49,291 bases of DNA from a virus. The position numbers and the translations under genes were made by a program. The notes beneath the pieces were generated by a model. The model worked only from the letters and a program-made list of their open reading frames with translations. It did no database searches and was not told the DNA's origin. The stretch is taken from the IMG/VR virus record IMGVR_UViG_3300006924_000035, positions 1 through 49,291 of that record. One strand, given 5' to 3'. This document shows positions 11,166-45,293 of the stretch, piece by piece; within the stretch, counting starts at the first letter, position 1; each line of letters starts with the position of its first letter.

Positions 11166-11857
11166 CTTTTAAACAACCAGAAAATGTAATTGCTATACAA
11201 AGCAATAGACCACAGGATTTTTTTTATGTACATTGGAACATAGGAAGACGATGTAATTACGATTGTAGTTATTGTCCTGACAGTTTACATGATTTTAAAA
11301 GTTCGCACCGCAGTCTTGAAAATTTAATTGAAATAGCAGAAAAACTTAAAGCAAACATTCCTTCAAGTAAAAAGATTAGAATATGGTTTACAGGCGGCGA
11401 ACCAACAGTTAATCCAAATTTTCTTAAGTTTTGTAAATGGTTAAACAATGACGGAAGATTTGTAGTAGGGTTAAACACTAATGGTAGCAGGACCAAAGAA
11501 TACTTATTAGAACTTATGAGCTATATCAACATTATTCAATTTAGCAGTCATTTTGAGTATGTAGAGGAAGACAAATTTCTCCCTTCAATGAAAGCGATAA
11601 GCAATTATGTAAGTGACAAACATGGAAAAAGCATGAGTCTTAATCTAATGATGGAACCGGAGCATTGGGATAAAGCAGTAAGAATGGTTAAGTATTGTAT
11701 AGCTCATAATATTCCTTATCATATGAAACGCATAAGACCCAAAAGTGTTGTACATGAAGGTAAGAATCCATATTCGCCTGTTTATACAGAAAATCAAATA
11801 AAATTTTTAACTGATAATGAATATAGAAATGTAGTGCTAGAGGAATACGATGATTGA
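11162..11857 (+). CDS. Radical SAM core protein lacking its auxiliary domain
   Basis: 231 residues. CNYDCSYC (Cys31, 35, 38) lies only 30 residues from the start, followed by FTGGEPTVNPNF and VGLNTNGS, so the core is complete but no auxiliary cysteine domain precedes it. It is a near relative of the upstream gene and overlaps it by 4 bases (ATGA). The missing domain may be supplied by the stand-alone cysteine protein at 12475. Reaction unknown. Confidence 0.82.
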   Translation: MTFKQPENVIAIQSNRPQDFFYVHWNIGRRCNYDCSYCPDSLHDFKSSHRSLENLIEIAEKLKANIPSSKKIRIWFTGGEPTVNPNFLKFCKWLNNDGRFVVGLNTNGSRTKEYLLELMSYINIIQFSSHFEYVEEDKFLPSMKAISNYVSDKHGKSMSLNLMMEPEHWDKAVRMVKYCIAHNIPYHMKRIRPKSVVHEGKNPYSPVYTENQIKFLTDNEYRNVVLEEYDD

Positions 11858-12482
11858 ATTTTTTAAGATAGGTGATTATCAATTTCCTTATGATCCTACA
11901 TTAGAAAAAGTAGGCTTAAAAATCAGCGGTGGAGCAGATAGTAGTTTAATAGCATACATTTTAGGATTACTAAAATCACAAGGTTTAATTAAAAGCCAAA
12001 TAATTACAATGACCAATGAGCATCATGATCGTCCTTATCAGATAGATTATACTAACAAAATACTAAACTACATTACACAAAAAACAGGAAGTGTTTTTGA
12101 ATATAGATGTTCTGTGTTTTCTCCAAGTGCAGAAGAATACAACATGAATAGTAGTGCTATAGTACAAAAAACAAAAAATAGTTTAATGTTTGGTAAGCAT
12201 TATATGGGTATAACTGCTAATCCTCCAATCGAAACAGGAATAAAACAAGAAGATTTAGAACGCACACACGATAGAAATAAACTAGTATATACTGATACTA
12301 AAATTACACCGTGGATTAACTACGATAAGAAAGATATTGCTAACATTTATAAGCAATTAGACATTATGGAACTTTTTAGTATGACTAGAAGTTGCGAAAA
12401 TAAAACCTTTGACTTTACAAAGCATTGCGGTGAATGTTGGTGGTGTATAGAACGTAAATGGGGATTTGGAAAATATGAGTGA
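11850..12482 (+). CDS. QueC-like PP-loop ATPase (candidate 7-cyano-7-deazaguanine synthase)
   Basis: 210 residues. SGGADSS (26-32) is the PP-loop that binds ATP in QueC, asparagine synthetase and related N-type ATP pyrophosphatases. The C-terminus has Cys182, 193, 196 and 199 with spacing C-x10-C-x2-C-x2-C followed by R, matching the zinc site of QueC. QueC converts CDG with ammonia and ATP to preQ0. FolE, QueE, a QueD-like protein and a DpdA-like transglycosylase are on the other strand, so a DNA 7-deazaguanine role fits. Its location among radical SAM genes leaves open a different amidation role. Confidence 0.65.
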   Translation: MIEFFKIGDYQFPYDPTLEKVGLKISGGADSSLIAYILGLLKSQGLIKSQIITMTNEHHDRPYQIDYTNKILNYITQKTGSVFEYRCSVFSPSAEEYNMNSSAIVQKTKNSLMFGKHYMGITANPPIETGIKQEDLERTHDRNKLVYTDTKITPWINYDKKDIANIYKQLDIMELFSMTRSCENKTFDFTKHCGECWWCIERKWGFGKYE

Positions 12483-15404: not shown

Positions 15405-16102
15405 GAACACTTGAACATGTTAAAAGTATAGAAGAAAATAATTCTGATCCCTTTCAACTTTATAATTTTATCAGCAGAGTTGAAAACCAAGAACTTATTA
15501 AATTTTATGATAATACAGATAAAGAAATAAAAGCAACAGGACCTACAATAGTACGTCCTGACCTATCATTACCTGTATTTAAACAAATATTTAATAGAGT
15601 ACAAGAAACTATAGGTGAAGATGTACGTTTAGAATCAGCATTGATATTCAGTACTCCTTGGGCACATGTAATACATAATGACGACGATGTTAAAGGAAAT
15701 GCAAAGCCTTATAAAGCATTAACTATTCCTTTAGAATTATGGGGAACAGCAAAAGATACTGATATAAAACTAATGATGTTTGATCAGTATTATTATCATG
15801 GCGGCAAAAAATTTTACAATGGTGGCCCTGCCCCAAAAAAAATTGCAACCAATCTGCCTTTACTAGAATACAAAGATGTTAGTTACATTAATAATAAGGG
15901 TATACCTTATGATGTAAAGAAAAAATATCTTACACATTTACAAGATAACTGGCTAGAAGGATTATCAATCCATAGTTATTTTCCTTGGAAAATTAATAGT
16001 GCAATAATTTTTGACAGCACAAGATTACATAGTAGTAGTAATTTTAATGCTATAGGAGTTACTAAAAAACTAGCACTCAGTATCTTTACCTACCTACCAT
16101 AG
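15401..16102 (+). CDS. Putative 2OG/Fe(II)-dependent oxygenase
   Basis: 233 residues. WAHVIHNDDD supplies an H-x-D iron pair, and FDSTRLHSSSNF with TKKLALSIFTYL gives a distal His followed by a basic residue and a strand, the usual order of the double-stranded beta-helix oxygenases. The protein is short and divergent, so the call rests on this motif order. Such enzymes hydroxylate peptides, sugars or lipids using 2-oxoglutarate and oxygen. It overlaps the nitroreductase gene by 4 bases. Substrate unknown. Confidence 0.6.
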   Translation: MRTLEHVKSIEENNSDPFQLYNFISRVENQELIKFYDNTDKEIKATGPTIVRPDLSLPVFKQIFNRVQETIGEDVRLESALIFSTPWAHVIHNDDDVKGNAKPYKALTIPLELWGTAKDTDIKLMMFDQYYYHGGKKFYNGGPAPKKIATNLPLLEYKDVSYINNKGIPYDVKKKYLTHLQDNWLEGLSIHSYFPWKINSAIIFDSTRLHSSSNFNAIGVTKKLALSIFTYLP

Positions 16103-16107
16103 ATATA

Positions 16108-16115
16108 GATAAGTA
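16108..16115 (+). promoter_or_regulatory. Late-promoter-like octamer GATAAGTA, 5 bases before ATG
   Basis: GATAAGTA is followed by TTTTT and the ATG at 16121. No ribosome binding site lies between the octamer and the start. Spacing is identical to the sites at 14699 (+) and 26746 (-), which predicts a leaderless late transcript. Confidence 0.5.
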
Positions 16116-16120
16116 TTTTT

Positions 16121-16876
16121 ATGGTAGACTATAAGACTCACGACAAAAATGGTAACCCTTTAAATATTATAGATAATTCGCCTATTGAAGGTTATATAAG
16201 TCCTGCAAAAAGATGGGCTAATGAACCAGACTGGTTTGAACCTACGCAAGAAGATTTAAAATGTGAACTACAGTTATCTGCTTTAGATTTTTGGGAACCA
16301 TTAAAACAAAAAGTTAAAGAAAAAGAGTTCAGTTCTCAAATTGAACCTTACAATAATAAATGGATACCTTATTTGCGTAAAGAAGGTATTATGAATGATA
16401 GAGAAGGAATGTTGCTTTCAGGTCTCAACGGTGATACCTATACAGATAGTCTAAGCATGCCTGAAGCAATAAAACGTTCAGGGAAATATTTGTACGATAA
16501 GGACTTTAAATATCCAACAGAACTTTATAATAATTTAACATGCTTGCACCCTGTATTAGATATGTTTGGTCCTCTTGGCAGAACTGTTTTAATTAAAATG
16601 AACAAGGGATCTTTTTTTGTACCTCATAAAGATGATCCTTGGCTGGTTAGAGACTGTTTTAGGATTGCCGCTTTCTTTGGTAACACTCGCAACTTTGAAT
16701 GGGAAATGTGTGGTCAGAAAGTTGATATTGAGCCTGGAAGATTTTATTATATTGATACACGTAAAACTCATAGAACACATTCTTGGCAACATAGTAGTAT
16801 TCATTTAATTGTAAATATTCCAAAGACTTGGAAAAATGTTATGACACTTATAACAAATTTAGAAAGAGCTCCATGA
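16121..16876 (+). CDS. 2OG/Fe(II) oxygenase-like protein (Asp/Asn beta-hydroxylase-like)
   Basis: 251 residues. SFFVPHKDDPW gives the H-x-D pair in a strand. CFRIAAFFGN, VDIEPGRFYYIDTRKTHRTHSW and SIHLIVNI follow in the order expected of aspartyl/asparaginyl beta-hydroxylase-like folds, with His in KTHRTH as the distal iron ligand. The residue expected to bind the 2OG carboxylate is not an obvious Arg. Start by the ATG after a late-promoter-like site, with no Shine-Dalgarno. Substrate unknown. Confidence 0.65.
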   Translation: MVDYKTHDKNGNPLNIIDNSPIEGYISPAKRWANEPDWFEPTQEDLKCELQLSALDFWEPLKQKVKEKEFSSQIEPYNNKWIPYLRKEGIMNDREGMLLSGLNGDTYTDSLSMPEAIKRSGKYLYDKDFKYPTELYNNLTCLHPVLDMFGPLGRTVLIKMNKGSFFVPHKDDPWLVRDCFRIAAFFGNTRNFEWEMCGQKVDIEPGRFYYIDTRKTHRTHSWQHSSIHLIVNIPKTWKNVMTLITNLERAP

Positions 16877-35319: not shown

Positions 35320-35418
35320 TCACCATCCTGCCTTTCTTATTTTATCTTCGTTAATAGGCGCCTTCATCGCCCTTTCGTGTTGCTTGTTCTTGTATTTTGC
35401 ATCAAGTGCCCCACGCAT
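35320..35418 (-). CDS. Possible 32-residue ORF between queE and the 34933 gene
   Basis: An ATG at 35418 lies 17 bases inside the queE end and opens a short frame ending just before the next start (TGATATATG). It encodes a basic, helical peptide (NKQHERAMKAPINEDKIRK). GGA directly precedes the ATG, too close for a normal ribosome site. It would fill an otherwise empty 85-base gap in a packed operon. Weak support. Confidence 0.25.
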   Translation of the reverse strand: MRGALDAKYKNKQHERAMKAPINEDKIRKAGW

Positions 35419-36310
35419 TTCCGAAGAGTGAAATGTGTAGTCTGGGGGTAAATCTCCACCCTTCGGCCATACACGCTTCAGCCACGTCTTTAACGTTGAG
35501 GGCATATTCTTCACTGCGTCCGCCCAACGGCATAAGATATACTGGACATTCCAACCCGGCACCTCTGTAAGCTTCAACAGCTCTTTTGACTTCATCAAAG
35601 TCACCTTGAGTAGCGACAACAAACTTAAGATACATGTCGCTGTCAGTAACAAGCTGATACTCACTAGCCACGTCAGGCTTAATAGCAGTATCCCAAGGTT
35701 CTCCGCTAACGCTAAGTTTCGGGGAACAAGACCAAGTGACTTGGATTCTATCTTGATCATTAAGATAGTTAAAGAAATCTTCGTGTAAATGTTGTGTAGT
35801 GTTTGTTTCAAATGTAACATTTTTTAAATCCTTCATACGTGGATGTTCAAATAAATCAATGTAGAGCCTTTGCCACGCTAATAACGGCTCACCACCTGTT
35901 AAGATAAGGTGAACATCTTGTCCATTATCTTGTACCCATTTACCATTAGGAGTAAGTGATAGTAAATGTTCAACAACAGCATCAACACCTGCTAGTTTAT
36001 TAAAATGTTTAAACTCTGGATAGATACTTGCATATGTATCACAGCCTGTATGTATGATAGGCAAGTCGTTAAACTCTTTTGTAGTTTCGTGTACACCTTG
36101 GTTAATAAGTTCCATTACTTCTGCGTTATGTTTCTTACCTGCTTTATGTTGTTCCCAACGGTCACGTTTTTCATCTGTACCAAAGTTCATGCAACGAAAG
36201 TTACAACCAAATGTACGTAAGAATACACTAGGTACTCCTACAAATTTGCCTTCACCTTGTACACTATAAAATGCTTCTGAATATCTTAATTGTTTTTCTT
36301 TACTTTCCAC
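35402..36310 (-). CDS. queE: 7-carboxy-7-deazaguanine synthase (QueE), phage type
   Basis: 302 residues from GTG 36310, seven bases after AGGAG that lies inside the folE end. RYSEAFYSVQGEGKFVGVPSVFLRTFGCNFRC is the QueE signature, later LTGGEPLLAW and FTPRLHISLFGN. It converts CPH4 to CDG using SAM and a 4Fe-4S cluster. Unlike CX3CX2C, here the third cysteine comes about 49 residues after the second (CX3CX49C), within TGCDTYASIYPEF; a charged insert lies between. T4-like cyanophages have a similar layout as far as I recall. Overlaps folE by 11 bases. Confidence 0.87.
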   Translation of the reverse strand: MESKEKQLRYSEAFYSVQGEGKFVGVPSVFLRTFGCNFRCMNFGTDEKRDRWEQHKAGKKHNAEVMELINQGVHETTKEFNDLPIIHTGCDTYASIYPEFKHFNKLAGVDAVVEHLLSLTPNGKWVQDNGQDVHLILTGGEPLLAWQRLYIDLFEHPRMKDLKNVTFETNTTQHLHEDFFNYLNDQDRIQVTWSCSPKLSVSGEPWDTAIKPDVASEYQLVTDSDMYLKFVVATQGDFDEVKRAVEAYRGAGLECPVYLMPLGGRSEEYALNVKDVAEACMAEGWRFTPRLHISLFGNAWGT

Positions 36311-36989
36311 AAGCAAACTCCTGTTGCAGTTTAATGTTATCCATAAACTCTTTTTTAGTACCTGCGTCATCTTTAAACGCACCTTTGAGTACAGTTGTTT
36401 GTGTAAGACTACTATGTGCCTTAACACCTCTGTTCTCTACACAACCATGCGTTGCTTGTACATAAACACCTAAGTGTTCTGCATCTGTTGCTTTTTGTAT
36501 TTCGCGAGCAATATCATTTGCAAGTTCTTCTTGCAATGTACCACGTTCAGCACACCATTGTGCAATACGGGTGTATTTACTTAGTCCAATTAATTTGTCT
36601 GCGGCAATAATACCAATGTATGCAACACCTTTTACAATCTGATGATGATGCGAACACATACTTGTAAGTTCACTTCTAACAACTAACATACCTTCATAAC
36701 GATCCATACTGTCATTTGGAAATGCTGTCGCTTTTGGAATTGGATCATAACGTCCTGCCATTAATTCATTAATATACATCTTTGCTAGACGTTTACCAGT
36801 TCCCATACTATTAGGATCATTATGCCTGTCAATTACGAGTGAGTCTAGTACACTCTCAAAGGCTACAGTTGCTTCGTCAATTAGTGCTTCTTTGTCGCCT
36901 TCTAATAAAACGTCACTGATGTTGTCACCAGCCCAAGATCTAATGCCAGCCTCTTCTAACCTTGCTTTAATTTCTTCACTTTTGTTCAT
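36300..36989 (-). CDS. folE: GTP cyclohydrolase I (FolE)
   Basis: 229 residues. TSMCSHHHQIVKGVAYIGIIA is the zinc and substrate site (Cys and two His), LIGLSKYTRIAQWCAERGTLQEEL is the conserved core, and VYVQATHGCVENRGVKAH holds the second zinc Cys and the family signature. It turns GTP into 7,8-dihydroneopterin triphosphate, the entry step for folate and for queuosine-type bases. With QueE next to it and a DpdA-like enzyme further on, the 7-deazaguanine route is the likely use. Consensus promoter upstream and a small hairpin in its leader. Confidence 0.93.
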   Translation of the reverse strand: MNKSEEIKARLEEAGIRSWAGDNISDVLLEGDKEALIDEATVAFESVLDSLVIDRHNDPNSMGTGKRLAKMYINELMAGRYDPIPKATAFPNDSMDRYEGMLVVRSELTSMCSHHHQIVKGVAYIGIIAADKLIGLSKYTRIAQWCAERGTLQEELANDIAREIQKATDAEHLGVYVQATHGCVENRGVKAHSSLTQTTVLKGAFKDDAGTKKEFMDNIKLQQEFACGK

Positions 36990-37006
36990 TTAGTTCTCCG
37001 ATGTTA

Positions 37007-37022
37007 AGGCAGTGGATTGCCT
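37007..37022 (-). promoter_or_regulatory. Short hairpin in the folE leader
   Basis: AGGCA and TGCCT flank a 6-base loop in the untranslated leader between the promoter and the ribosome site CGGAGAA. It could affect folE translation. It does not fit a preQ1 riboswitch as I know it. Confidence 0.35.
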
Positions 37023-37034
37023 GTAATAGTTTAT

Positions 37035-37063
37035 ATTATACAATATATTTAGGTCTGTGTCAA
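37035..37063 (-). promoter_or_regulatory. Consensus sigma70 promoter of folE-queE
   Basis: TTGACA (37058-37063), 17-base spacer, TATAAT (37035-37040) on the - strand, 46 bases before the folE ATG. Confidence 0.8.
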
Positions 37064-37872
37064 CCTTTTTTAACATAATTTAAGTAGTCTTTAGCAATTA
37101 ATTCATGTATATGCTTAGTATAATGCTCGCCGTCGACTCTATGTTCGTCCGTTTCTATGTTAATGGCTTTTGCTAATTGCAAATAACCTTCTGCGGACGA
37201 TGATGCTTTTGTACCTGCTTGCCAATCTCCGTAAAGCTCAACATTGTCAGGAACAAATACTCTATTGTTAATCGTCCATTGATACCATTTAATATCTCGT
37301 CTAGCACACATAGTATCAATTGCTAATAAGTCTAAACAATAGTCTTTGTATTGTAAAGGTGTTACTAGCTCGTGCCAAAGTTTTGTGTAGATATATTTTT
37401 CATGAAAGGGTTTAAAGTCTGCTTGTACTTTCATATCGTCAAAAAAGAAACCTTTAAATTCTTCGTAGTTTTCTTTTCTAACTTGATCAATCATTTCAAT
37501 GTAATTTTCAGTTACACGATGATCTGTATATCTTTTTATCTTTTCGTCTTTTGGTTGATTGTCATCTAAGAACAAATCTACATTTGTATTTTCACCAACA
37601 TCTAAGTTACGTGAACATGCAAGTAAGAATCTATTCCAATATGTACTTTGCACAAATACTTCATCAATGTCATCATAACGATCAAGCATTGATTTAACCC
37701 AAGCAGGATATTTTCTGTTACATCCACCTGGTTGACTATAGATAATAACTTCTTTATTATTTTCTTCGGCATATATCTCAGCATAGTTATTATCTTGCCA
37801 TGCTGAGATTGTATCACCGATTTCAGAGTATCCGTGTGCGTGACTATCGCCGATGAATAGTGTTTTAGTCAT
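37060..37872 (-). CDS. SGNH-hydrolase-like protein
   Basis: 270 residues. TLFIGDSHAHGYSEIGD (GDSH at 8-11) is the nucleophile-Ser block I of SGNH esterases; YSQPGGCNRKYPAW gives a block II-like Gly; VFVQSTYWNRF resembles block III; DGEHYTKHIHELIA at the end supplies a D-x-x-H block V. Such enzymes remove acyl groups from sugars or lipids. The phage could use it on host surface glycans or during virion assembly. Its end overlaps the folE promoter, and its start overlaps the next upstream gene by 8 bases. Confidence 0.72.
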   Translation of the reverse strand: MTKTLFIGDSHAHGYSEIGDTISAWQDNNYAEIYAEENNKEVIIYSQPGGCNRKYPAWVKSMLDRYDDIDEVFVQSTYWNRFLLACSRNLDVGENTNVDLFLDDNQPKDEKIKRYTDHRVTENYIEMIDQVRKENYEEFKGFFFDDMKVQADFKPFHEKYIYTKLWHELVTPLQYKDYCLDLLAIDTMCARRDIKWYQWTINNRVFVPDNVELYGDWQAGTKASSSAEGYLQLAKAINIETDEHRVDGEHYTKHIHELIAKDYLNYVKKG

Positions 37873-38071
37873 TAAAATACTTGTTCAACATTTCTAGTCT
37901 ATCATCAGCAGTTGCCATAGCATCTAATTCTTTTTGAATTGTTTCGATGATGTCTGAATGTTCGCCAATGCCTACAACCTTTTCCATATACACATTAATA
38001 TTAGTTTTGTGTAATAGGACTTCTGCTTCGGCATGTTTTCTTGCCGCTTCAATCATTTGCTGTTTCAACAT
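37865..38071 (-). CDS. Small conserved phage protein
   Basis: 68 residues, helical. MIEAARKHAEAEVLLHKTNINVYMEKVVGIGEHSD with the following IIETIQKELDAMA resembles a small protein widely seen in T4-like cyanophages, of unknown function. AGGAAAGGAACTT precedes the ATG. Overlaps the HIT gene upstream by 23 bases. Confidence 0.6.
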   Translation of the reverse strand: MLKQQMIEAARKHAEAEVLLHKTNINVYMEKVVGIGEHSDIIETIQKELDAMATADDRLEMLNKYFND

Positions 38072-38417
38072 AAGTTCCTTTCCTGTAGTTTCCTTGTTTA
38101 GGTATTACGTGTCGTACGCCGCCGCGTGGATCATCCATATCGCCTTTGCGCCTAGGAATTAAGTGAACGTGTGGATAGTTAACAGTTTGTCCTGCCGCTT
38201 CTCCAACGTTTTGTCCGATGTTGAACGCATCACAGTATCCACGTTCAACCCAATCATAGCCCCATTTATATGCGGCCTCCATACATTTTGTTAGTCCTCT
38301 CCAGTCTTCTTGTTTAGGCACAAAAAGAATGTGTCCTTCAGTAACCGGATAGCCATCTTTGTATACTGTAAAGTCTTTTGACTCAATTAGTACATCTGTC
38401 CAAGGTTTAGAATCCAT
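38049..38417 (-). CDS. HIT-family hydrolase-like protein
   Basis: 122 residues. EGHILFVPKQEDWRGL and GQNVGEAAGQTVNYPHVHLIPRRKGD are typical HIT motifs. The histidine triad reads Y-P-H-V-H-L-I (His83 and His85), so the catalytic and one flanking His are kept and the first is Tyr. Members hydrolyse dinucleoside polyphosphates or nucleoside phosphoramidates. In the phage it may clear Ap4A-type nucleotides. DDPRGGVRHVIPKQGNY at the end is as in cyanophage homologues I recall. Confidence 0.8.
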   Translation of the reverse strand: MDSKPWTDVLIESKDFTVYKDGYPVTEGHILFVPKQEDWRGLTKCMEAAYKWGYDWVERGYCDAFNIGQNVGEAAGQTVNYPHVHLIPRRKGDMDDPRGGVRHVIPKQGNYRKGTYVETAND

Positions 38418-38988
38418 AATTAAATGCCACCATTATACGTTCTTTATCTGTAAGTTGTTGTTCAACTTTATGATGCAAATGACTTGGAAAGATAATTAAA
38501 CTTCCTGTCATTGCCGCACAAGTTACATTAGGAGAGTTTGCTTCATTTAGTTCTGAAACATTTACTCTCGGCCAGTTAGCTTTCATATTAGGATTAACAA
38601 GTGTTAGTCCTGGATGATCTTGATCTGCTTGAATATAGTATACTCCACTCCATGTGTCTGGAAGATGATTATGTTCTTCGTGGTAAGTGTACTTACGATT
38701 AATACTAAACCAACTGCTCTTAAGTGAAGGCGTATGTTGTAGTTTAGTTTCTTTATGACACTCTTTTACACTTGCATCAATAAAGTTTTTTAAATCTTCA
38801 AACAACGGATGTTCTAAAATACTTTCACTGCCGTATGATGTATATCCGTTAGCAGTATATCTTATAGGAGATTTATCTGTTTTTTCTTTTGCTAAAAGCT
38901 CTTTAACTACAGACTTTTGTAGCTCTTGAGCTTTGTCGTATACAGCTCTAAATACTTGTGTTGGAAATATAAACTGCTTCTCAATCAT
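38407..38988 (-). CDS. 2OG/Fe(II) oxygenase of the phage type (PF13759-like)
   Basis: 193 residues from ATG 38988, seven bases after GGAG and overlapping the upstream stop (TAATG). YTYHEEHNHLPDTWSGVYYIQ and TGSLIIFPSHLHHKVEQQLTDKERIMVAFNY match the 2OG-FeII oxygenase family common in T4-like cyanophages, with H-x-H at the first iron site, a distal His and an Arg for 2OG. FPTQVFRA at the start is also usual. Unlike the oxygenases of the island it lies among nucleotide-metabolism genes. Substrate unknown. Confidence 0.82.
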   Translation of the reverse strand: MIEKQFIFPTQVFRAVYDKAQELQKSVVKELLAKEKTDKSPIRYTANGYTSYGSESILEHPLFEDLKNFIDASVKECHKETKLQHTPSLKSSWFSINRKYTYHEEHNHLPDTWSGVYYIQADQDHPGLTLVNPNMKANWPRVNVSELNEANSPNVTCAAMTGSLIIFPSHLHHKVEQQLTDKERIMVAFNYGF

Positions 38989-39533
38989 TAATATTCTCCA
39001 ACGTGTTCCCAAGGATAAACTAACCAAACATCTTCTTCTGCTTTATTTACTTCGTGGCAACTATAGGATATTGTACTATTGAAATCACTTGCTAAATTAT
39101 CGGTTAGTGTAGCAAAGCGAACATTGTTACCAAACACATTATTCCATTTAGGATCATCAGGCAAACACCCTTGTTTCCAGTCTTGCATAATCCAATTAAA
39201 CGTAGCACCAGTATCGTTAATATCATCTACAATAAGAATTTTCTTTTCTAATGGCCCTGCTGTTACTTTTGTACCATCGTTGTATCCATATGCATCTTCT
39301 GCCATCCATAACATACTATCGCCAGTCTTACCTGACTCTCCATCACGTAAACTTACTTTAAGTGCTTCACAACGTATACCTGTGATGTTACTAATAATAG
39401 TAGCAGGTACATTACCACCACGTGTAATACCTACAATGTAATCAGGCTTCCAATTGTCAGCGTACATTTGATTTACAATACTAACGCACATACGTTCTAC
39501 GTCTTGCCAGTTGTAATAGTGTTTTTTAATCAT
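38988..39533 (-). CDS. Phosphoribosyltransferase-family protein
   Basis: 181 residues from ATG 39533 (in-frame ATGs at 39542, 39545 and 39551 are alternatives). YIVGITRGGNVPATIIS and KKILIVDDINDTGATFNWI form the type I phosphoribosyltransferase fold; the latter is the PRPP-binding acidic pair and loop. Similar to xanthine/hypoxanthine-type salvage enzymes, with an altered base-binding hood. It may salvage purines or act as a regulator. Overlaps its neighbours by 8 bases and by one base (TAATG). Confidence 0.8.
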   Translation of the reverse strand: MIKKHYYNWQDVERMCVSIVNQMYADNWKPDYIVGITRGGNVPATIISNITGIRCEALKVSLRDGESGKTGDSMLWMAEDAYGYNDGTKVTAGPLEKKILIVDDINDTGATFNWIMQDWKQGCLPDDPKWNNVFGNNVRFATLTDNLASDFNSTISYSCHEVNKAEEDVWLVYPWEHVGEY

Positions 39534-39708
39534 GATATCCATCATCCTCATCTAATATTTTAATAGTTGGTTTATTAATAAACCAGTTTGGAACCTCTGG
39601 ACAAGCATCTTTAATTTCTTGACTAGTATATGATTCAGGTTGTCTAATACCATATTTGTTCATTTGGTCTAAAGCCCAATCTGTAACATCTTGCTTGTTC
39701 TTAAACAT
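39526..39708 (-). CDS. Small hypothetical protein
   Basis: 60 residues, starting at an ATG after AAGGATTATTTAAAG. QDVTDWALDQMNKYGIRQPE and an acidic end (LDEDDGYHD). No motif recognised. It overlaps the phosphoribosyltransferase by 8 bases and the cupin-like gene by 8, which supports it as a real gene in a coupled operon. Confidence 0.5.
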   Translation of the reverse strand: MFKNKQDVTDWALDQMNKYGIRQPESYTSQEIKDACPEVPNWFINKPTIKILDEDDGYHD

Positions 39709-40117
39709 TCTTTAAATAATCCTTGTTGTCGATCCATTTACCATTTTTTACAAAGCCCCAGCTTTGTGCTTTTCTACCCATGAAGAATAAACTCCAACAT
39801 GGAATGTTATTTCCATCTTTGTCCTTTGCAAGCTCTAACCAATGTAGATCTTTTGCTGAACGAAAACGTATGCTACCTGGACCACGCCAAAACTTGCCTT
39901 GTGGTGTATGTTCCCAATAGCCGCCTTTAATAATAAATGCTCCCCAACTCCAAGGATGATCATGTAGTGTAGGCTCATCACTTACTAAAACTTTATGTAG
40001 TGTGATGTTGAAAGGAAAGTTTTTTCTTTCTTTTAAAAACAAATAATATCTTACTAGGTAAGGTACTTTACCGCTTCTATCTGTAATTACACGTTTACGG
40101 TTTTTAAAAAAGTTCAT
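39701..40117 (-). CDS. Cupin-like metal-binding protein
   Basis: 138 residues. DEPTLHDHPWSWGAFIIKGGYWEHTP is a cupin motif 1 with H-x-H and a later Glu and His; FRSAKDLHWLEL resembles motif 2. Homologues I recall occur in T4-like cyanophages without assigned role. A single small barrel of this size could be an isomerase, dioxygenase or binding protein. AGGGGAAATAAAAG precedes the ATG. Overlaps both neighbours. Confidence 0.68.
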   Translation of the reverse strand: MNFFKNRKRVITDRSGKVPYLVRYYLFLKERKNFPFNITLHKVLVSDEPTLHDHPWSWGAFIIKGGYWEHTPQGKFWRGPGSIRFRSAKDLHWLELAKDKDGNNIPCWSLFFMGRKAQSWGFVKNGKWIDNKDYLKNV

Positions 40118-40451
40118 CTTTTATTTCCCCTGATTCTTTTTTACCTTTGTAATCTTGCTTAACCATATTATATACACTTTCAAAGTTGCGCCAAACTTTT
40201 ACAAGTGCAGGATATTCTTTACACATGTTTTCTACTTCGTCTGGATCAATCATGGTATCTAAAATATTATAATAACCACCTGTACTACCTGCACTATCAA
40301 ATGTAATATTTGGACCTGCACTATTTGTATTGATAATGTATTCACCACCAGTATCATTTACACCATCAATGGTAATTGTTACATCACTAAGACCATAATC
40401 CATACTTGGTGAATCTGTTGTAATATAACCTGTATCGTAATCATCACCCAT
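40104..40451 (-). CDS. Conserved T4-like phage hypothetical protein
   Basis: 115 residues. The N-terminal half is Gly/Thr/Ser-rich with strand-like segments (ITTDSPSMDYGLSDVTITI). The C-terminal half, IDPDEVENMCKEYPALVKVWRNFESVYNMV, is a module conserved at the C-terminus of T4-like cyanophage proteins I recall. AGGAGGTAAGCA precedes the ATG. Possibly a protein-interaction module; function unknown. Confidence 0.58.
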   Translation of the reverse strand: MGDDYDTGYITTDSPSMDYGLSDVTITIDGVNDTGGEYIINTNSAGPNITFDSAGSTGGYYNILDTMIDPDEVENMCKEYPALVKVWRNFESVYNMVKQDYKGKKESGEIKDELF

Positions 40452-41523
40452 TGCTTACCTCCTTGTATAATGCTTCGCCACTAAAGAAAGATCTTTTTAA
40501 GTTGTATAATTGTTTATTCATAGGACCTTTATAACTATCATAGTTTTCCATATAATCAATTACTTTGTCAACAAGTTGCGGTCTAAATTTTTTGTATTGC
40601 TCAAAGTTCTTAGTCCAAATACTTGGATACTTGAAAGGCTGATCTGCCATTTCACTATAACTAAGTCTATCAGGAACCATAGGAATAGTATCAACTAATA
40701 AACCTTCGTACCAACTAATACCTAGTGTTTCTTGTAGATTAGCACTAAACACAAGTTTAGCTTTACCTAACAAATTATGGTAGTCATTTTTTGATAGTTG
40801 TTTTTCTTGACACACAATAAATTCATATTGCGGTAATTGTTCTTTTAAATCTCTAAAGATTTCAACTTGTTTTTCTGGAGCAACTCTGTGCGGAAACAAA
40901 ATTATATCTTCTTTAGGCATGCTTTTATAACTATCTAAACTAGTAGCCAAGTACTCCATAGGCCATCCAACACGTTTAATTTTATCTTCGTTAACGTGCC
41001 TATTATCTAAAATAGGATCACCTTTGTTTTTAAATGTTTGTAAAAATAAGTCTATATGAAACTGTGTAGCAAAAAAGTTATGATCATAACAATCAAACAT
41101 ACTACGTTCTGCATTCCTTACCCAAGGTTTATTACCTATAAGTCTACCTAAAAAATCTTGCGGATCATAACTACCTGCATGCCACAAACCACCAATGCGA
41201 ATATCAACACCCAATAGCTCTGCCATATAGCGTAATTGAATAACTGTAGGATTCCAGGCATCGGTATAGATAAAATAATCATCATCTTTAATTTCACCAC
41301 TTGCAAACATCCTGCTAATCTCTAACATCTGTTGAGATTTGTAATTGTTAGTTCCGGCAAAGTTAAGAAATGCCCCAGGCGTTGTAGCCTGAGGTACTTC
41401 TCCACCACTAATAACAATAACTTCTTCATTCGTAGATCGTTGCAGTTGCTTTGGAAGATATTCTTTCCACTGCTTAGTATACCTAGTATCTACTGCTTCA
41501 ATGTCTACGATAAAGATTGTCAT
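40444..41523 (-). CDS. GT-B-type glycosyltransferase-like protein
   Basis: 359 residues. Two Rossmann halves are suggested: an N-terminal half with VDIEAVDTRYTKQW and a C-terminal half with IILFPHRVAPEKQVEIFRDL, KLVFSANLQETLGISWYEGL and TIPMVPDRLSYSEM, the last matching the E-x7-E-like donor site of family 4 GT-B enzymes. HAGSYDPQDFLGR lies between. It sits with replication and DNA modification genes, so DNA glucosylation is one possibility, as in T4; a glycan target is equally possible. AGGAGA precedes the start. Confidence 0.7.
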   Translation of the reverse strand: MTIFIVDIEAVDTRYTKQWKEYLPKQLQRSTNEEVIVISGGEVPQATTPGAFLNFAGTNNYKSQQMLEISRMFASGEIKDDDYFIYTDAWNPTVIQLRYMAELLGVDIRIGGLWHAGSYDPQDFLGRLIGNKPWVRNAERSMFDCYDHNFFATQFHIDLFLQTFKNKGDPILDNRHVNEDKIKRVGWPMEYLATSLDSYKSMPKEDIILFPHRVAPEKQVEIFRDLKEQLPQYEFIVCQEKQLSKNDYHNLLGKAKLVFSANLQETLGISWYEGLLVDTIPMVPDRLSYSEMADQPFKYPSIWTKNFEQYKKFRPQLVDKVIDYMENYDSYKGPMNKQLYNLKRSFFSGEALYKEVSNG

Positions 41524-41789
41524 TAGTGTCTCCTATTACTCTGATAACGACCTTGATTATTACGATCATTACGATGGTTATTAAATTTACGTTTGCCGCC
41601 TGAACGGAATCTGCTATAAGCCTGCCAAGCACGACTTTTATTATTATACAGATTTCTTTCGTCCCAAGTATAGCCATCATGACCAAACAAGTACGCGGTC
41701 CTGCAGAACGCTTTGAAACGTTCCATATCGTCAAAGATTTTTACAATCTCTGGGTTTTTAGCAAAGTATTCACCCTGGTTGTAAGCCAT
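41523..41789 (-). CDS. Small basic protein, possibly nucleic-acid binding
   Basis: 88 residues. The N-terminal half (YNQGEYFAKNPEIVKIFDDMERFKAFCRTA) resembles a conserved small cyanophage protein; the C-terminal third is rich in Arg, Asn and Gly (GGKRKFNNHRNDRNNQGRYQ), as in nucleic-acid binding tails. GGAGATAATAA precedes the ATG. Function unknown. Confidence 0.58.
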   Translation of the reverse strand: MAYNQGEYFAKNPEIVKIFDDMERFKAFCRTAYLFGHDGYTWDERNLYNNKSRAWQAYSRFRSGGKRKFNNHRNDRNNQGRYQSNRRH

Positions 41790-41801
41790 TTATTATCTCC
41801 T

Positions 41802-42263
41802 TTAATAGCTAGGGTATGTAATTTGTGCACCGTTCTCTCCGTCTTCGGAAATCTCGATGTGGACCTCACGTCCAGTATATTTTGTTGTAATCTGCTCATA
41901 CAAATCATCTGACATCATTTCACATGACTTATAATCTAGTTCAAGTGTTTTTTCTGCGTAAAGTTTCTCCATCCATCTTTTAAATTGAATAAACTCGATA
42001 TCTCTGTCATTATGTGTAACAGTAATACCTACTCTAAAATGAAATATGTGTCTATGGGGATATCCCAAAAAACTAACATCATATTCATCACCTGTTGCAA
42101 GACTAGGATCATCTAGTGCCGCAGGATACTTATGGATACCTTCTTTCTTAAAGGTTACCCAAATCATACGTTTTGCTTCTTTCATTGCTTTGTCTTTAGC
42201 ATCAATCATATCTTGTTCTCTCATTCTACGCATCATATAGTCATAATGTCGTTCTTGTTGCAT
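41802..42263 (-). CDS. QueD-like T-fold protein (candidate 6-carboxytetrahydropterin synthase)
   Basis: Up to 153 residues; the true start may be one of the in-frame ATGs downstream (42236, 42233, 42224, 42209, 42185, 42167), because a consensus promoter would start transcripts inside the first codons. GIHKYPAA, YPHRHIFHFRVGITV and DIEFIQFKRWM follow the order of QueD motifs (zinc His, H-x-H strand, then the D-F-x-x-L/F-K segment), and SCEMMSDDLYEQITTKY with VHIEISEDGENGAQ fits the C-terminal helix and strand with Glu. FolE, QueE and a DpdA-like gene are close by. The family is usually listed as hypothetical in cyanophages; the QueD assignment is my inference. Confidence 0.55.
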   Translation of the reverse strand: MQQERHYDYMMRRMREQDMIDAKDKAMKEAKRMIWVTFKKEGIHKYPAALDDPSLATGDEYDVSFLGYPHRHIFHFRVGITVTHNDRDIEFIQFKRWMEKLYAEKTLELDYKSCEMMSDDLYEQITTKYTGREVHIEISEDGENGAQITYPSY

Positions 42264-42265
42264 TT

Positions 42266-42294
42266 ATTATACTACCTTTACTCATTGTTGTCAA
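42266..42294 (-). promoter_or_regulatory. Consensus sigma70 promoter before the QueD-like gene
   Basis: TTGACA (42289-42294), 17-base spacer, TATAAT (42266-42271) on the - strand, with the -10 only two bases before the ATG at 42263. It lies at the 3' end of the upstream gene and beyond. Expected start of transcription is near 42259. Confidence 0.7.
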
Positions 42295-42823
42295 TAGATA
42301 TTGGTGAATCATTTTCGTATTTTTCCCAAGATGTAAACTTATCTCTTGACTGCAAATCTCTAGCATAATGTACCCAAACACCTGCATTTGATGCTTTAAA
42401 GTCTTTATCATCAATTTTAATACATGCATTGTAGTTAAGTTGATCAATATAAGGTAGTTTTACGCTAATCATACTAATAAACTTTTTATGTTCATTATAC
42501 CCAGATTCTAACACCCAACTATGAAACTTAACATCATAGTCTAGTGTAACCCAAAAGCCAGCTTTACATAATCCATCAACTAATAGATCCCATGCTGTAT
42601 TTTGTTCGTTCTTACCGTATGGCAATTCAATGTCAAAACTTTGATTGGCGCCTAAGTAAATGTGTTCGACTGATTCCGCTTTTGCTCTTTCAATCACGTC
42701 ATCAACATCTTGTGGTCCTACAACAAACAATGTATGTTCATTGTGAACTGGTGTATGCTCTACTTCATAACCTGTAAAATATACAACGTCATCTTTGACG
42801 CCATCATCGTAATCTCTATTCAT
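42278..42823 (-). CDS. Conserved T4-like phage hypothetical protein
   Basis: 181 residues. TLFVVGPQDVDDVIERAKAE, HIYLGANQSFD and WVTLDYDVKFHSWVLESG are segments I recall from conserved cyanophage proteins without function. KLPYIDQLNYNACIKIDDKDF with NAGVWVH and LQSRDKFTSWEKY follow. It looks like a small alpha/beta enzyme or binding protein, but no catalytic signature is obvious. Placed between the DpdA-like and QueD-like genes, so a link to base modification is worth testing. Confidence 0.6.
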   Translation of the reverse strand: MNRDYDDGVKDDVVYFTGYEVEHTPVHNEHTLFVVGPQDVDDVIERAKAESVEHIYLGANQSFDIELPYGKNEQNTAWDLLVDGLCKAGFWVTLDYDVKFHSWVLESGYNEHKKFISMISVKLPYIDQLNYNACIKIDDKDFKASNAGVWVHYARDLQSRDKFTSWEKYENDSPISIDNNE

Positions 42824-43001
42824 CTTTTGCTAACTGATCCTTTATTGCAAGTTTTTCTTTTTTTAGATTAATAAGGTGTGATTTGTGATTATATGATCTA
42901 TCACCTTCACGTTCTTTTTCTATTGCTTCAACTTTGTTGTGTAAGTAGTCGTGCATATTTTGTAACTTTTTTGCACTTTTACTTTTTCTTCCTGTCGCCA
43001 T
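42816..43001 (-). CDS. Small coiled-coil protein, DUF465/YdcH-like
   Basis: 61 residues, highly charged and helical. The pattern YLHNKVEAIEKERE, then SHLINLKKEKLAIKDQLA resembles DUF465 (YdcH), whose members have H-x(3)-L/V and a C-terminal LKKEKLxLKDxI. GGAGG precedes the ATG. Function unknown in cells as well. Confidence 0.6.
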   Translation of the reverse strand: MATGRKSKSAKKLQNMHDYLHNKVEAIEKEREGDRSYNHKSHLINLKKEKLAIKDQLAKDE

Positions 43002-43003
43002 CT

Positions 43004-44536
43004 TTATACCTCCGTAAATAAATTTGAAAAGCCTGTATTTGCATTTACAGTCTTTTTACCTACTGCTCCTCTAGTGCCAATAATTGACATCCAGAATTTA
43101 CTATATTCTTCTATGATTGCTTCTGCTTCGTCTCTGTTTGAAGTTGCAAATATTGCTTCCACAACATCTTTAAAATATAGCCTGTCGAATTGTTCCTCCA
43201 CAAGCATTGCCGGAACATTTCCATTGTCGTATTGTCTGTTTGCTTCTTGTACTGCATTAACATGACTCCATACGTTGTGACCCATTTGTATAGCATAACT
43301 AAAACTATCCCAACTAGTTGAGTCACGTTTACGAATAATTTGATTACCGTCTTCGTCTAGTATAGGATTACCATGTTTGTCTCTATCAATTTCTCCTGCT
43401 AAAATTTTAGGACCACCAACTTTGTTAGTGTCACCAGGAGCATATATACAAACATCGTTTACTTTAATATTTTTAGTCAAAGGACTATCAGTAAAGTTTT
43501 TAAATATTCCATCTGCTAGTACACCATCTCTAAAGTTACGTGTATCAGTTGCATACTTTAATTCATCAATACTTGGAACCATTCTGTAGACCCATTTAGT
43601 TCTATCTTCAGTTTCAGTTTGAATGTAAATTTGTCCATTTGCTGTAGCAAGGAAAGGAGAAGCACAATCAAATGTAATTGTAAAGTTTGGATTATGATAC
43701 TTACGTACTGCTCTTTGTATATCAGTTAGTAGTGTAGCCCATTCTAGTTTGCTTGTTCCTAGAAAGTGCATAAAGTCATGTTTACCTTGTTCAAGTAATC
43801 CATCAAAACGTAATGCTACAATACGTTTAAGAACTAAGTGTATATCACACATGTTCTGTCCACCCATCGACCATCCGTTAAAGTGATTCTCATACTTTGC
43901 AGGATCACAATAGTCTTTCATCTGTTGATACCAATCTTCAGCATCAGCATGATTCTCACCTTGTAATACATTTAAGAACTTACAAGCACCTGTTCTGTGT
44001 TTCATAAAGTAGTCGTTGTTAATACGTGTAGCATTAACAGCCTCTTGATATGTACTAATACCTGTTGCTTTTGCACCAGCAGGTGAACGTGCCACCCAAG
44101 CCGGAATATCAAGTATCATACCATAGTCCATATAAGCATCCATCCACGCAAGTACTTGCTCACGTTTCTTTTGTGCTTTAGGACAATTAGGATCTTTCCA
44201 ATCGCCTTCCCAAACACCTTTACCAATTTGGAAGCCACCTGAGTCACCTAACAACCAACTGTTCTCACGATCACGTTCTCTAACCATAAGTTCTTTTGGA
44301 GCATCTTTATTGATATCTAATTCAGCATGTCCTGCTGAGTACAGAGTCCAATGATAGTTAAACATTCCTTCTTTTTTGTTTAACCAATTCATACTTTCCA
44401 TACTAGGATAAGGAATACGACTTTCTTCAACATATTCTTCACGCCTTTGCTTACCTACAAATGTTGCGTAGAATCCACTTAGAGCTGGAAGAAATATTGC
44501 ATAGTCTTTTTGTGCTGTTGTTAAGTCAGTATTCAA
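43004..44536 (-). CDS. DpdA-like DNA guanine transglycosylase (TGT superfamily)
   Basis: 510 residues from TTG 44536, seven bases after AGGAG; the ATG at 44626 would lie inside the clamp gene. GDSGGFQ (Asp98), MILDIP (Asp143), NVLQGE (189-194), GWSMGG (221-226) and TFDCASPFLATANGQIYI (Asp290) follow the order of tRNA-guanine transglycosylase motifs, with Asp290 at the place of the nucleophile. TGT-type phage proteins of this kind (DpdA families) put preQ0 or derivatives into DNA. With folE, queE, and QueD-like and QueC-like genes in the window, DNA modification is the likely job. C-terminal zinc cysteines of the tRNA enzyme are not evident. Confidence 0.78.
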   Translation of the reverse strand: MNTDLTTAQKDYAIFLPALSGFYATFVGKQRREEYVEESRIPYPSMESMNWLNKKEGMFNYHWTLYSAGHAELDINKDAPKELMVRERDRENSWLLGDSGGFQIGKGVWEGDWKDPNCPKAQKKREQVLAWMDAYMDYGMILDIPAWVARSPAGAKATGISTYQEAVNATRINNDYFMKHRTGACKFLNVLQGENHADAEDWYQQMKDYCDPAKYENHFNGWSMGGQNMCDIHLVLKRIVALRFDGLLEQGKHDFMHFLGTSKLEWATLLTDIQRAVRKYHNPNFTITFDCASPFLATANGQIYIQTETEDRTKWVYRMVPSIDELKYATDTRNFRDGVLADGIFKNFTDSPLTKNIKVNDVCIYAPGDTNKVGGPKILAGEIDRDKHGNPILDEDGNQIIRKRDSTSWDSFSYAIQMGHNVWSHVNAVQEANRQYDNGNVPAMLVEEQFDRLYFKDVVEAIFATSNRDEAEAIIEEYSKFWMSIIGTRGAVGKKTVNANTGFSNLFTEV

Positions 44537-44546
44537 CTTGTTTCTC

Positions 44547-45293
44547 CTACTTAGATTGTGCTGGCAAAATGTAATTGTATGTTCCCATACCACTATCAAC
44601 TGTAATTTGCATTGCACCTTGATCACTTAGACTCATTGTTGCTTGTCCGTCCAAGTTTAAGATTGCTTGTACTTGTGCTACAGGATATGTCCATGCATGC
44701 TTTAATGTACCTTCAACACCTGTTTGGAATACAAACTTACCTGCGTGTGTATTTGCATCACCAAAGTAAAACATTACATCAGTAACACCACTAGTTTCTT
44801 CAACTTTAATTGTAAAAGTTGTTTCTTCTGAATGTGCCGCACTTTGCAATTTCATTCTAGTAATTGCCGCTAACGATGGAGTAAATGATACATCCCATGT
44901 TGCACCTTTAAACTTAACACTTTTAAGTTTTTCATTAATAATCTCTGTTGACATAAAACGGAAATCGTTTTGGAAATCACCTGCTTCATTCTCAAAGTGA
45001 ATACCAGTTGGAATAACTGTACCATTACGATCTTGTTCGGTAATTGTAAGTTTGCTATTCTTTTGATACTCTGGATTCTTTAAATGCAATGCAAGTTTAT
45101 CTAAGTTAGGCATACCAAAAATGTTTGCGCCAAATTCAGCTACCTTTTCTTTTGTGTTTGCTGACAGAATTACACTGCGATCTTCTGCCATTGATTCAAC
45201 AGTAGTACTACTGTCGTCTCCTGTTACTTTCACTAAGCTCAAAAAGCCTAAAGAATGTGTCTTTGCTACTACGTCTTGTAAAATATCTTTCAT
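44547..45293 (-). CDS. Probable DNA polymerase sliding clamp (gp45-like)
   Basis: 248 residues. ANIFGMPNLDKLALHLKNPEYQ, DVSFTPSLAAITRMKLQSAA and FYFGDANTHAGKFVFQTGVEG give the repeated strand-helix halves expected of a T4-type clamp, and the C-terminal TMSLSDQGAMQITVDSGMGTYNYILPA is a typical terminal strand pair. In T4, gp45 is both processivity clamp and late transcription co-activator, which fits the late octamers here. It diverges from T4 gp45 and the call depends on this architecture and the neighbouring polymerase. AGGAGA precedes the start; consensus promoter upstream. Confidence 0.6.
   Translation of the reverse strand: MKDILQDVVAKTHSLGFLSLVKVTGDDSSTTVESMAEDRSVILSANTKEKVAEFGANIFGMPNLDKLALHLKNPEYQKNSKLTITEQDRNGTVIPTGIHFENEAGDFQNDFRFMSTEIINEKLKSVKFKGATWDVSFTPSLAAITRMKLQSAAHSEETTFTIKVEETSGVTDVMFYFGDANTHAGKFVFQTGVEGTLKHAWTYPVAQVQAILNLDGQATMSLSDQGAMQITVDSGMGTYNYILPAQSK

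Follow-up and report, generated by a model that had tools for sequence, protein, structure and literature searches.

7-Deazaguanine synthesis and its phage variants

QueD, which belongs with PTPS to family PF01242, is a T-fold enzyme with three zinc-binding histidines, the first of which ends strand 1 while the other two form an HxH motif where strand 2 begins. Its catalytic cysteine lies between the first histidine and the HxH motif, an Asp-His dyad follows helix 1, and a glutamate in a late strand holds the pterin. In phages, Cui et al. reportedly described dDG and dCDG in 2023, together with DpdL, a predicted 7-carboxy-7-deazaguanine (CDG) decarboxylase; to our knowledge, the account of DpdL makes no link to a glycosyltransferase.

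FolE, QueD, QueE and QueC make preQ0, the substrate of QueC is CDG, and a phage that lacks QueC alone might carry CDG (PMC6884629). QueC (PF06508) is characterised by an SGGxDS PP-loop and a C(x)8CxxCxxC zinc motif (PMC13329287).

A predicted T-fold protein in a viral genome fragment

The stretch of DNA analysed here, referred to as the window, is a viral sequence of 49,291 nucleotides (IMG/VR record IMGVR_UViG_3300006924_000035). The gene under study was defined from its open reading frame, an AlphaFold2 model, alignments and phrog_17812:

41802-42263, minus strand: predicted QueD-fold (T-fold) protein, 153 aa, ATG start

The product consists of an N-terminal helix (residues 6-28), which is missing or different in shorter relatives, and a T-fold core spanning about residues 31-150. 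The motifs from which the initial annotation had read a resemblance to QueD/PTPS are all present in the 153 aa frame, namely GIHKYPAA (42-49), HRH (70-72), IEFIQFKRWM (89-98) and CEMMSDDLYEQI (114-125), as is the glutamate (E140) within a late strand. The protein is a member of phrog_17812 (E 1.2e-34), which is the same family and whose function is listed there as unknown.

Residue conservation was counted from 190 aligned rows, 189 of which were used and dereplicated at 90% to leave 110 relatives. Ten residues are invariant (110/110): H44, L66, H70, H72, F74, R87, E90, S113, E115 and E140; C114 and D141 (109/110 each) and H84 (108/110) are nearly so. As judged from this alignment, the conservation is far above chance.

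The AlphaFold2 model, built on alignment A2 (29 sequences), has a pLDDT of 92.4 and a pTM of 0.77. After the N-terminal helix its elements run E33-44, E70-81, H87-103, H114-128, E134-140 and E144-150, which is the bbaabb order of the QueD T-fold. H44 closes strand 1 and H70 and H72 open strand 2; we take these to be the places of the zinc histidines of QueD, and E140 to be that of its pterin-holding glutamate, both being mapped by element order and secondary structure and not by residue-level superposition. The histidine triad is a predicted metal site of the QueD type.

Foldseek comparison of the model with the PDB places E. coli QueD or its PTPS homologue at ranks 1-8 (E 4.0e-4 to 1.0e-3, probability 1.00), and viral QueD/PTPS proteins occupy ranks 3-7 of the BFVD search (E 3.6e-3 to 1.6e-2). 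Three structures tie within 1 Z in VIA-align: QueD (Z 10.5, rmsd 2.7, 109 aligned), DHNA (Z 10.5, rmsd 2.8, 102 aligned) and the PTPS of P. horikoshii (Z 11.1, rmsd 2.3, 95 aligned). The T-fold assignment is firm at the level of the model, and QueD is its best, though not its sole, structural match. The QueD/PTPS element order proposed from the sequence is therefore borne out by a predicted T-fold (pLDDT 92) whose best Foldseek match is QueD, and the two features on which that proposal had been staked, a T-fold and a histidine cluster, are both found, the former in the model and the latter as invariant H44, H70 and H72.

QueF-like enzymes that act on preQ0 are likewise T-fold enzymes working on a 7-deazaguanine. 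They enter the Foldseek list no higher than rank 21, with a best E of 8.2e-3, below QueD, and the histidine triad of the window protein is of the QueD type. QueF-like and DHNA T-folds were set aside as closest kin; both fit the fold, yet QueD tops the Foldseek list.

Divergence from QueD

The T-fold family and QueD/PTPS have in common the fold, the order of elements, the places of the histidine triad and the late-strand glutamate; they differ in that QueD/PTPS has a conserved catalytic cysteine, an Asp-His dyad and a match to the PF01242 profile, whereas the T-fold family is without these. Across the 110 relatives no cysteine is conserved between H44 and H70, a cysteine at any position in this interval occurring in 28/110, and no conserved Asp-His pair precedes S113 in the 29 aligned T-fold sequences. 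Neither the SGGxDS PP-loop nor the C(x)8CxxCxxC motif of QueC is present in the 153 aa protein, which has one cysteine.

Profile and sequence searches give a similar picture. PF01242 matches none of 29 T-fold members at E <= 1, NCBIfam gives no match to the window protein at E <= 10, and phmmer against PDB sequences returns nothing significant. The A2 profile likewise has no significant match among PDB sequences, with QueD 4ntm at E 1.4; its top rows are bacterioferritins (E 0.034-0.22), which are probably chance matches. With hhalign, the T-fold family aligns to canonical QueD at a probability of 16% (E 0.0016), to four phage PTPS at 43% and to HGY-type PTPS (see below) at 87% (E 3.6e-6), the last over the C-terminal half only, while comparison runs against FolE and against reversed QueD gave 0.4% and 0.2%. 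Of 30 column shuffles, 28 scored <=16.4 and two produced nonsense matches near 137, one of which spans 9 columns, and owing to these two the shuffles are not a clean control. Homology to canonical QueD is thus weak at the level of sequence.

Genes surrounding the T-fold gene

The initial annotation had placed the gene close to FolE, QueE and a DpdA-like protein, and genes of all three kinds do lie nearby on the strand of the T-fold gene. The relevant neighbours are:

35402-36427, minus strand: QueE-like radical SAM protein (7-carboxy-7-deazaguanine synthase), phrog_2076 at E 1.8e-51
36300-36989, minus strand: FolE, GTP cyclohydrolase I, PF01227 at E 4.5e-37 and phrog_2197 at E 3.8e-43
38988-39551, minus strand: phosphoribosyltransferase, PF00156 at E 4.1e-12
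40444-41523, minus strand: glycosyltransferase-like protein (GT), 359 aa, family profile matching 8xsg
41523-41789, minus strand: 88 aa open reading frame between GT and the T-fold gene, kept in 74/80 close viral loci
42278-42823, minus strand: 181 aa open reading frame between the T-fold and DpdA genes, kept in 75/80 close viral loci
43004-44626, minus strand: DpdA-like guanine transglycosylase, 540 aa, D128-SGG motif, assigned from motif, profile and model

The best NCBIfam QueE models match 35402-36427 at E 1.4e-12 to 1e-7, all under their cut-offs, and the listed start of this frame is GTG, its true start being uncertain. The DpdA-like frame also has a GTG as its listed start, and the true start may come later. 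Pfam gives no match of its product to Tgt. Structure was used for this protein because PF01702 (Tgt) finds a match in none of 15 phage records, phages with known DpdA included, and so fails to detect DpdA of phages. DSGG.Q is invariant in 15 DpdA-like sequences, the hits of their profile at E <= 1 comprise 39/41 Tgt chains (best E 0.013), and the 14 best PDB matches of an AlphaFold2 model of residues 30-540 (pLDDT 79.9) are Tgt-superfamily chains, DpdA 7ui4 among them. As modelled, the product has a Tgt fold with a DSGG motif and is DpdA-like. The GT family profile matches 8xsg, a putative glycosyltransferase, at E 8.6e-4. The two short frames on either side of the T-fold gene are possible further parts of the module, and the phosphoribosyltransferase is present in 55/80 close viral loci. 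PADLOC returned no hits on nine proteins.

Neighbours were counted within the fetched flanks, so that genes farther out are missed, and many loci stop at contig ends. The 80 close viral loci contain DpdA in 76, GT in 79, FolE in 68 and QueE in 44. Loci from cellular genomes, of which 18 were counted after one (L110, at a contig end and with no T-fold reading frame) was left out, contain GT in 17, DpdA in 16, FolE in 6 and QueE in 5. For 80 diverse loci with flanks of up to 8 kb, the counts are 52 for FolE, 46 for QueE, 41 for PTPS and 0 for QueC.

Distribution of the family

A tblastn search over 50,697 phage records found T-fold matches in 26, from phages of Sinorhizobium, Rhizobium, Pseudomonas, Acidovorax, Aeromonas, Xanthomonas, Vibrio, Cellulophaga and Chryseobacterium and of one lake Synechococcus. 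The last, a single record (PCC 7942, lake isolate) at 34.8% identity, is the only Synechococcus phage among the 26, and Prochlorococcus phages are absent from them; the description of the protein as a conserved cyanophage one is not supported. Its description as a widespread hypothetical is, with at least 598 relatives in IMG/VR and a hypothetical protein under the match in 26/26 phage records, four of which also show names of neighbouring genes. From the 26 records, 11 named phages were chosen, one per distinct phage group as judged by us; FolE is found near the T-fold gene in 10 of these and QueE in nine, no QueE being found near it in the other two. The T-fold protein is CGPG_00067 in Cellulophaga phage phiST and gp125 in Acidovorax phage ACP17.

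Cellular genomes, sampled at one genome per species for 84,980 species, contain 19 T-fold loci. No matches came from single divergent T-fold queries in two viral scans, from a plasmid search with the Magnetospirillum-type T-fold, or from a DNA-level search of phages with window positions 36000-44700. The phages to which the close viral contigs belong are probably marine.

Coexistence with PF01242 proteins and absence of full-length QueC

PF01242 was searched in 22 records, made up of the window record, every one of the 11 named phages and 10 of the 19 loci from cellular genomes. A PF01242 protein separate from the T-fold protein is present in 10/11 named phages and in 10/10 assemblies; it was not found in Vibrio D479, the sole exception among the named phages, nor in the window record, which is a fragment. 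PTPS lies within the fetched flanks of 41/80 diverse loci, and FolE, QueE and PTPS occur all together in 30/80. Close to the window, where 22 contigs over 50 kb were available among the 80 close loci (L001-L080), PF01242 was found in 2/22, in contigs whose T-fold proteins are 79.6% and 80.5% identical to that of the window.

The 41 PTPS partners fall into two types. Thirteen are of the HGH type, with the cysteine, HGH and Asp-His in 13/13 and the first histidine in 6/13 by a crude pattern; 28 are of the HGY type, with the cysteine and Asp-His in 27/28 and the first histidine in five. Asp-His is present in 40/41 overall, the remaining sequence being cut short. HGY-type phage PTPS (L082, L084, L086, L087 and others) are common beside the T-fold gene; in these HGY replaces HGH and the first zinc histidine is mostly gone, while the cysteine and Asp-His are kept. 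From their sequences, HGY-type proteins may perhaps not be working QueD. Seven named phages (Phosso, X1, MA9V-3, RHph_I1_18, ACP17, phiST and BUCT-ZZ01) have the HGY type only, PA5oct has both types, and Bakedbeans and Ahp1 have the HGH type, that of Ahp1 being barely over the cut-off.

No full-length QueC (PF06508) was found in any of the 11 named T-fold phages, the only matches being partial ones in Xanthomonas X1 (16 bits) and Vibrio D479 (32.8 bits, C-terminal). The 22 close contigs over 50 kb have none either, with weak partial matches in four, and QueC is near 0/80 diverse T-fold loci. In the control phages CAjan, nt-1, 9g and Dp-1 the pattern is reversed, with QueC and PF01242 in 4/4 and the T-fold protein in 0/4. 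A profile built from six QueC of cellular genomes, with the four control-phage QueC kept out of its build, recovers the latter at E 2.4e-41 or better (130-202 bits) and gives the partial matches 28 bits at most. The gap in the T-fold pathways is QueC, not QueD.

A PP-loop protein is also encoded elsewhere in the window:

11850-12482, plus strand: PP-loop protein, 210 aa, SGGADS motif, zinc tail resembling that of QueC, between radical SAM genes

Its match to PF06508 (30.3 bits) covers the C-terminal part, and the QueC equivalog model, whose cut-off is 150.3 bits, gives 18.2; by sequence it appears to be a relative of QueC and not canonical QueC. The partial QueC matches come from PP-loop relatives, this protein among them, and divergent proteins of this kind that end in a zinc tail like that of QueC occur in the window, in Vibrio D479 and in some relatives.

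Proposed function of the T-fold protein

On balance, the T-fold protein is probably a diverged QueD paralog that acts after QueE, in the place of QueC, on CDG, and is likely a decarboxylase. It would have retained the fold, the histidine metal site and the pterin-type glutamate and lost the cysteine and Asp-His dyad of QueD. FolE, QueD and QueE, of phage or host, would convert GTP to CDG, which would pass to the T-fold protein, replacing the CDG to preQ0 step of QueC. The T-fold protein would most likely strip the carboxylate to give 7-deazaguanine, and the Tgt-fold DpdA would then exchange guanine in DNA for the resulting base.

The observations behind this reading are the predicted fold, the conserved residues, the neighbours, the coexistence with PF01242 and the absence of full-length QueC. 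CDG is the likely substrate because a QueD-fold protein joins operons of FolE, QueD and QueE and is not found with QueC. Loss of the carboxylate is the simplest reaction and most likely the one performed, and it agrees with what Cui et al. are said to have proposed in 2023. We infer the metal, the supply by the host where a phage has no QueD, and the insertion into DNA. The setting that DpdL would need (FolE, QueD and QueE, with no QueC) is matched in the named T-fold phages, with DpdA in some of them, and the T-fold protein is probably DpdL, the predicted CDG decarboxylase. Several observations weigh against this reading: the weak sequence homology to canonical QueD, the DHNA structures that score within 1 Z of QueD, the seven named phages whose PF01242 protein is of the HGY type only, the low count of PF01242 (2/22) in long contigs close to the window, the two named phages in which no QueE lies near the T-fold gene, and the divergent PP-loop proteins related to QueC. 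A GT would also be odd if the product were plain 7-deazaguanine, on which there is no obvious handle for a sugar. On the proposed reading a widespread hypothetical protein would acquire both a fold and a position in the 7-deazaguanine DNA pathway, where it would follow QueE and stand in for QueC; the family should not be annotated as QueD.

The glycosyltransferase and alternative readings

An alternative that we consider unlikely is that the protein works on CDG or a related 7-deazaguanine by another reaction, such as one providing a handle for GT, which would result in a glycosylated DNA base. It is favoured by the presence of GT in 79/80 close viral loci and 17/18 genome loci. Against it, the T-fold gene occurs without GT in 6/11 named phages and 38/80 diverse loci, and GT consequently follows the DpdA type more. 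GT is present in 5/5 named phages with the DpdA type of the window, ACP17 and PA5oct among them, in 0/6 T-fold phages without that type and in 0/4 QueC control phages, and phiST is one of those that lack GT; among the 80 diverse loci, 29 have GT and DpdA, 13 GT alone, two DpdA alone and 36 neither. GT thus tracks the window's DpdA type, imperfectly, more than it tracks the T-fold gene.

The same reading draws on bacterial operons of the Magnetospirillum type, since GT, T-fold and DpdA genes overlap on seven bacterial contigs (L098, L099, L100, L101, L103, L106 and L108), five of which are titled Magnetospirillum. On the Magnetospirillum aberrantis contig (L100, 7182-13681), genes for a CoiA-like nuclease, GT, T-fold, DpdA and a PF01242 QueD follow one another in this order; the ends of GT, T-fold and DpdA overlap and QueD (PF01242 E 1e-22) lies 360 bases downstream. 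This operon may be a chromosomal DNA-modification island. A 288 aa frame comes after QueD in L100, and by eye the frame at 15774-16346 is integrase-like.

That the three genes found in the lineage of the window overlap on Magnetospirillum contigs hints at a glycosylated 7-deazaguanine. A broader and quite tentative proposal, which we regard as possible though doubtful, is that T-fold, DpdA-like and GT proteins form a module placing glycosylated 7-deazaguanine in DNA, in which the T-fold protein makes the inserted base from the product of QueE. The link to GT points to what could be a new hypermodification of DNA, in phages as well as in bacteria; if the proposal is true, very common, probably marine, phages and Magnetospirillum-type bacteria would carry a new hypermodified DNA base. 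Among the papers searched, none joins deazaguanine, phage, DNA modification, DpdA and a glycosyltransferase.

It is rather improbable that the T-fold protein is a functional QueD among the near relatives of the window, a clade with FolE and QueE but mostly without a PF01242 protein, where it would make 6-carboxytetrahydropterin and thereby bridge FolE and QueE. That QueD is the top structural match and the histidine triad is retained would fit such a role, as would the lack of detected PF01242 in 20/22 long close contigs and in the window record and, in many relatives, the HGY-type partners whose QueD activity is unproven. The coexistence with PF01242 in 10/11 named phages and 41/80 diverse loci, and in two contigs with T-folds as close as about four-fifths identity to that of the window, argues against it; a QueD would be redundant beside an HGH-type partner with cysteine and Asp-His (13/80 loci, and PA5oct, Bakedbeans and Magnetospirillum), the family has neither a conserved cysteine between H44 and H70 nor an Asp-His dyad, and QueD of the host could presumably supply the step. 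The QueD identity first proposed for the protein therefore stands for the fold and the histidine triad, while the function is mostly contradicted. The associated idea that it closes a gap in the pathway is in general unsupported, the missing enzyme being QueC; it keeps some likelihood near the window, where only 2/22 contigs have PF01242.

An anti-defence protein binding a nucleotide signal, such as a relative of the Thoeris inhibitor Tad6, is very improbable and was rejected as an identity: the Pfam Tad6 match is weak in the window protein (E 0.041; 14.4 bits, where the cut-off is 27) and in 5/29 members (best E 0.025), the neighbours are base-synthesis genes, and the T-fold gene also occurs on bacterial contigs beside DpdA and QueD.

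T-fold domains within longer proteins

In some loci the T-fold forms part of a longer reading frame, with an extra C-terminal part in L181 (7995-8948) and L194 (7992-8735) and an extra N-terminal part in L088 (7503-8384); Pfam gave no match on the long frames of L181 and L088. Among BFVD models, a T-fold lies within a 459 aa chain named 'Alcohol dehydrogenase, N-terminal' (A0A6J5LEZ6, 42% identity) and within a 300 aa chain named 'AAA domain protein' (A0A8S5V119, 30% identity), which, if they are real fusions, might hint at the chemistry of the neighbours.
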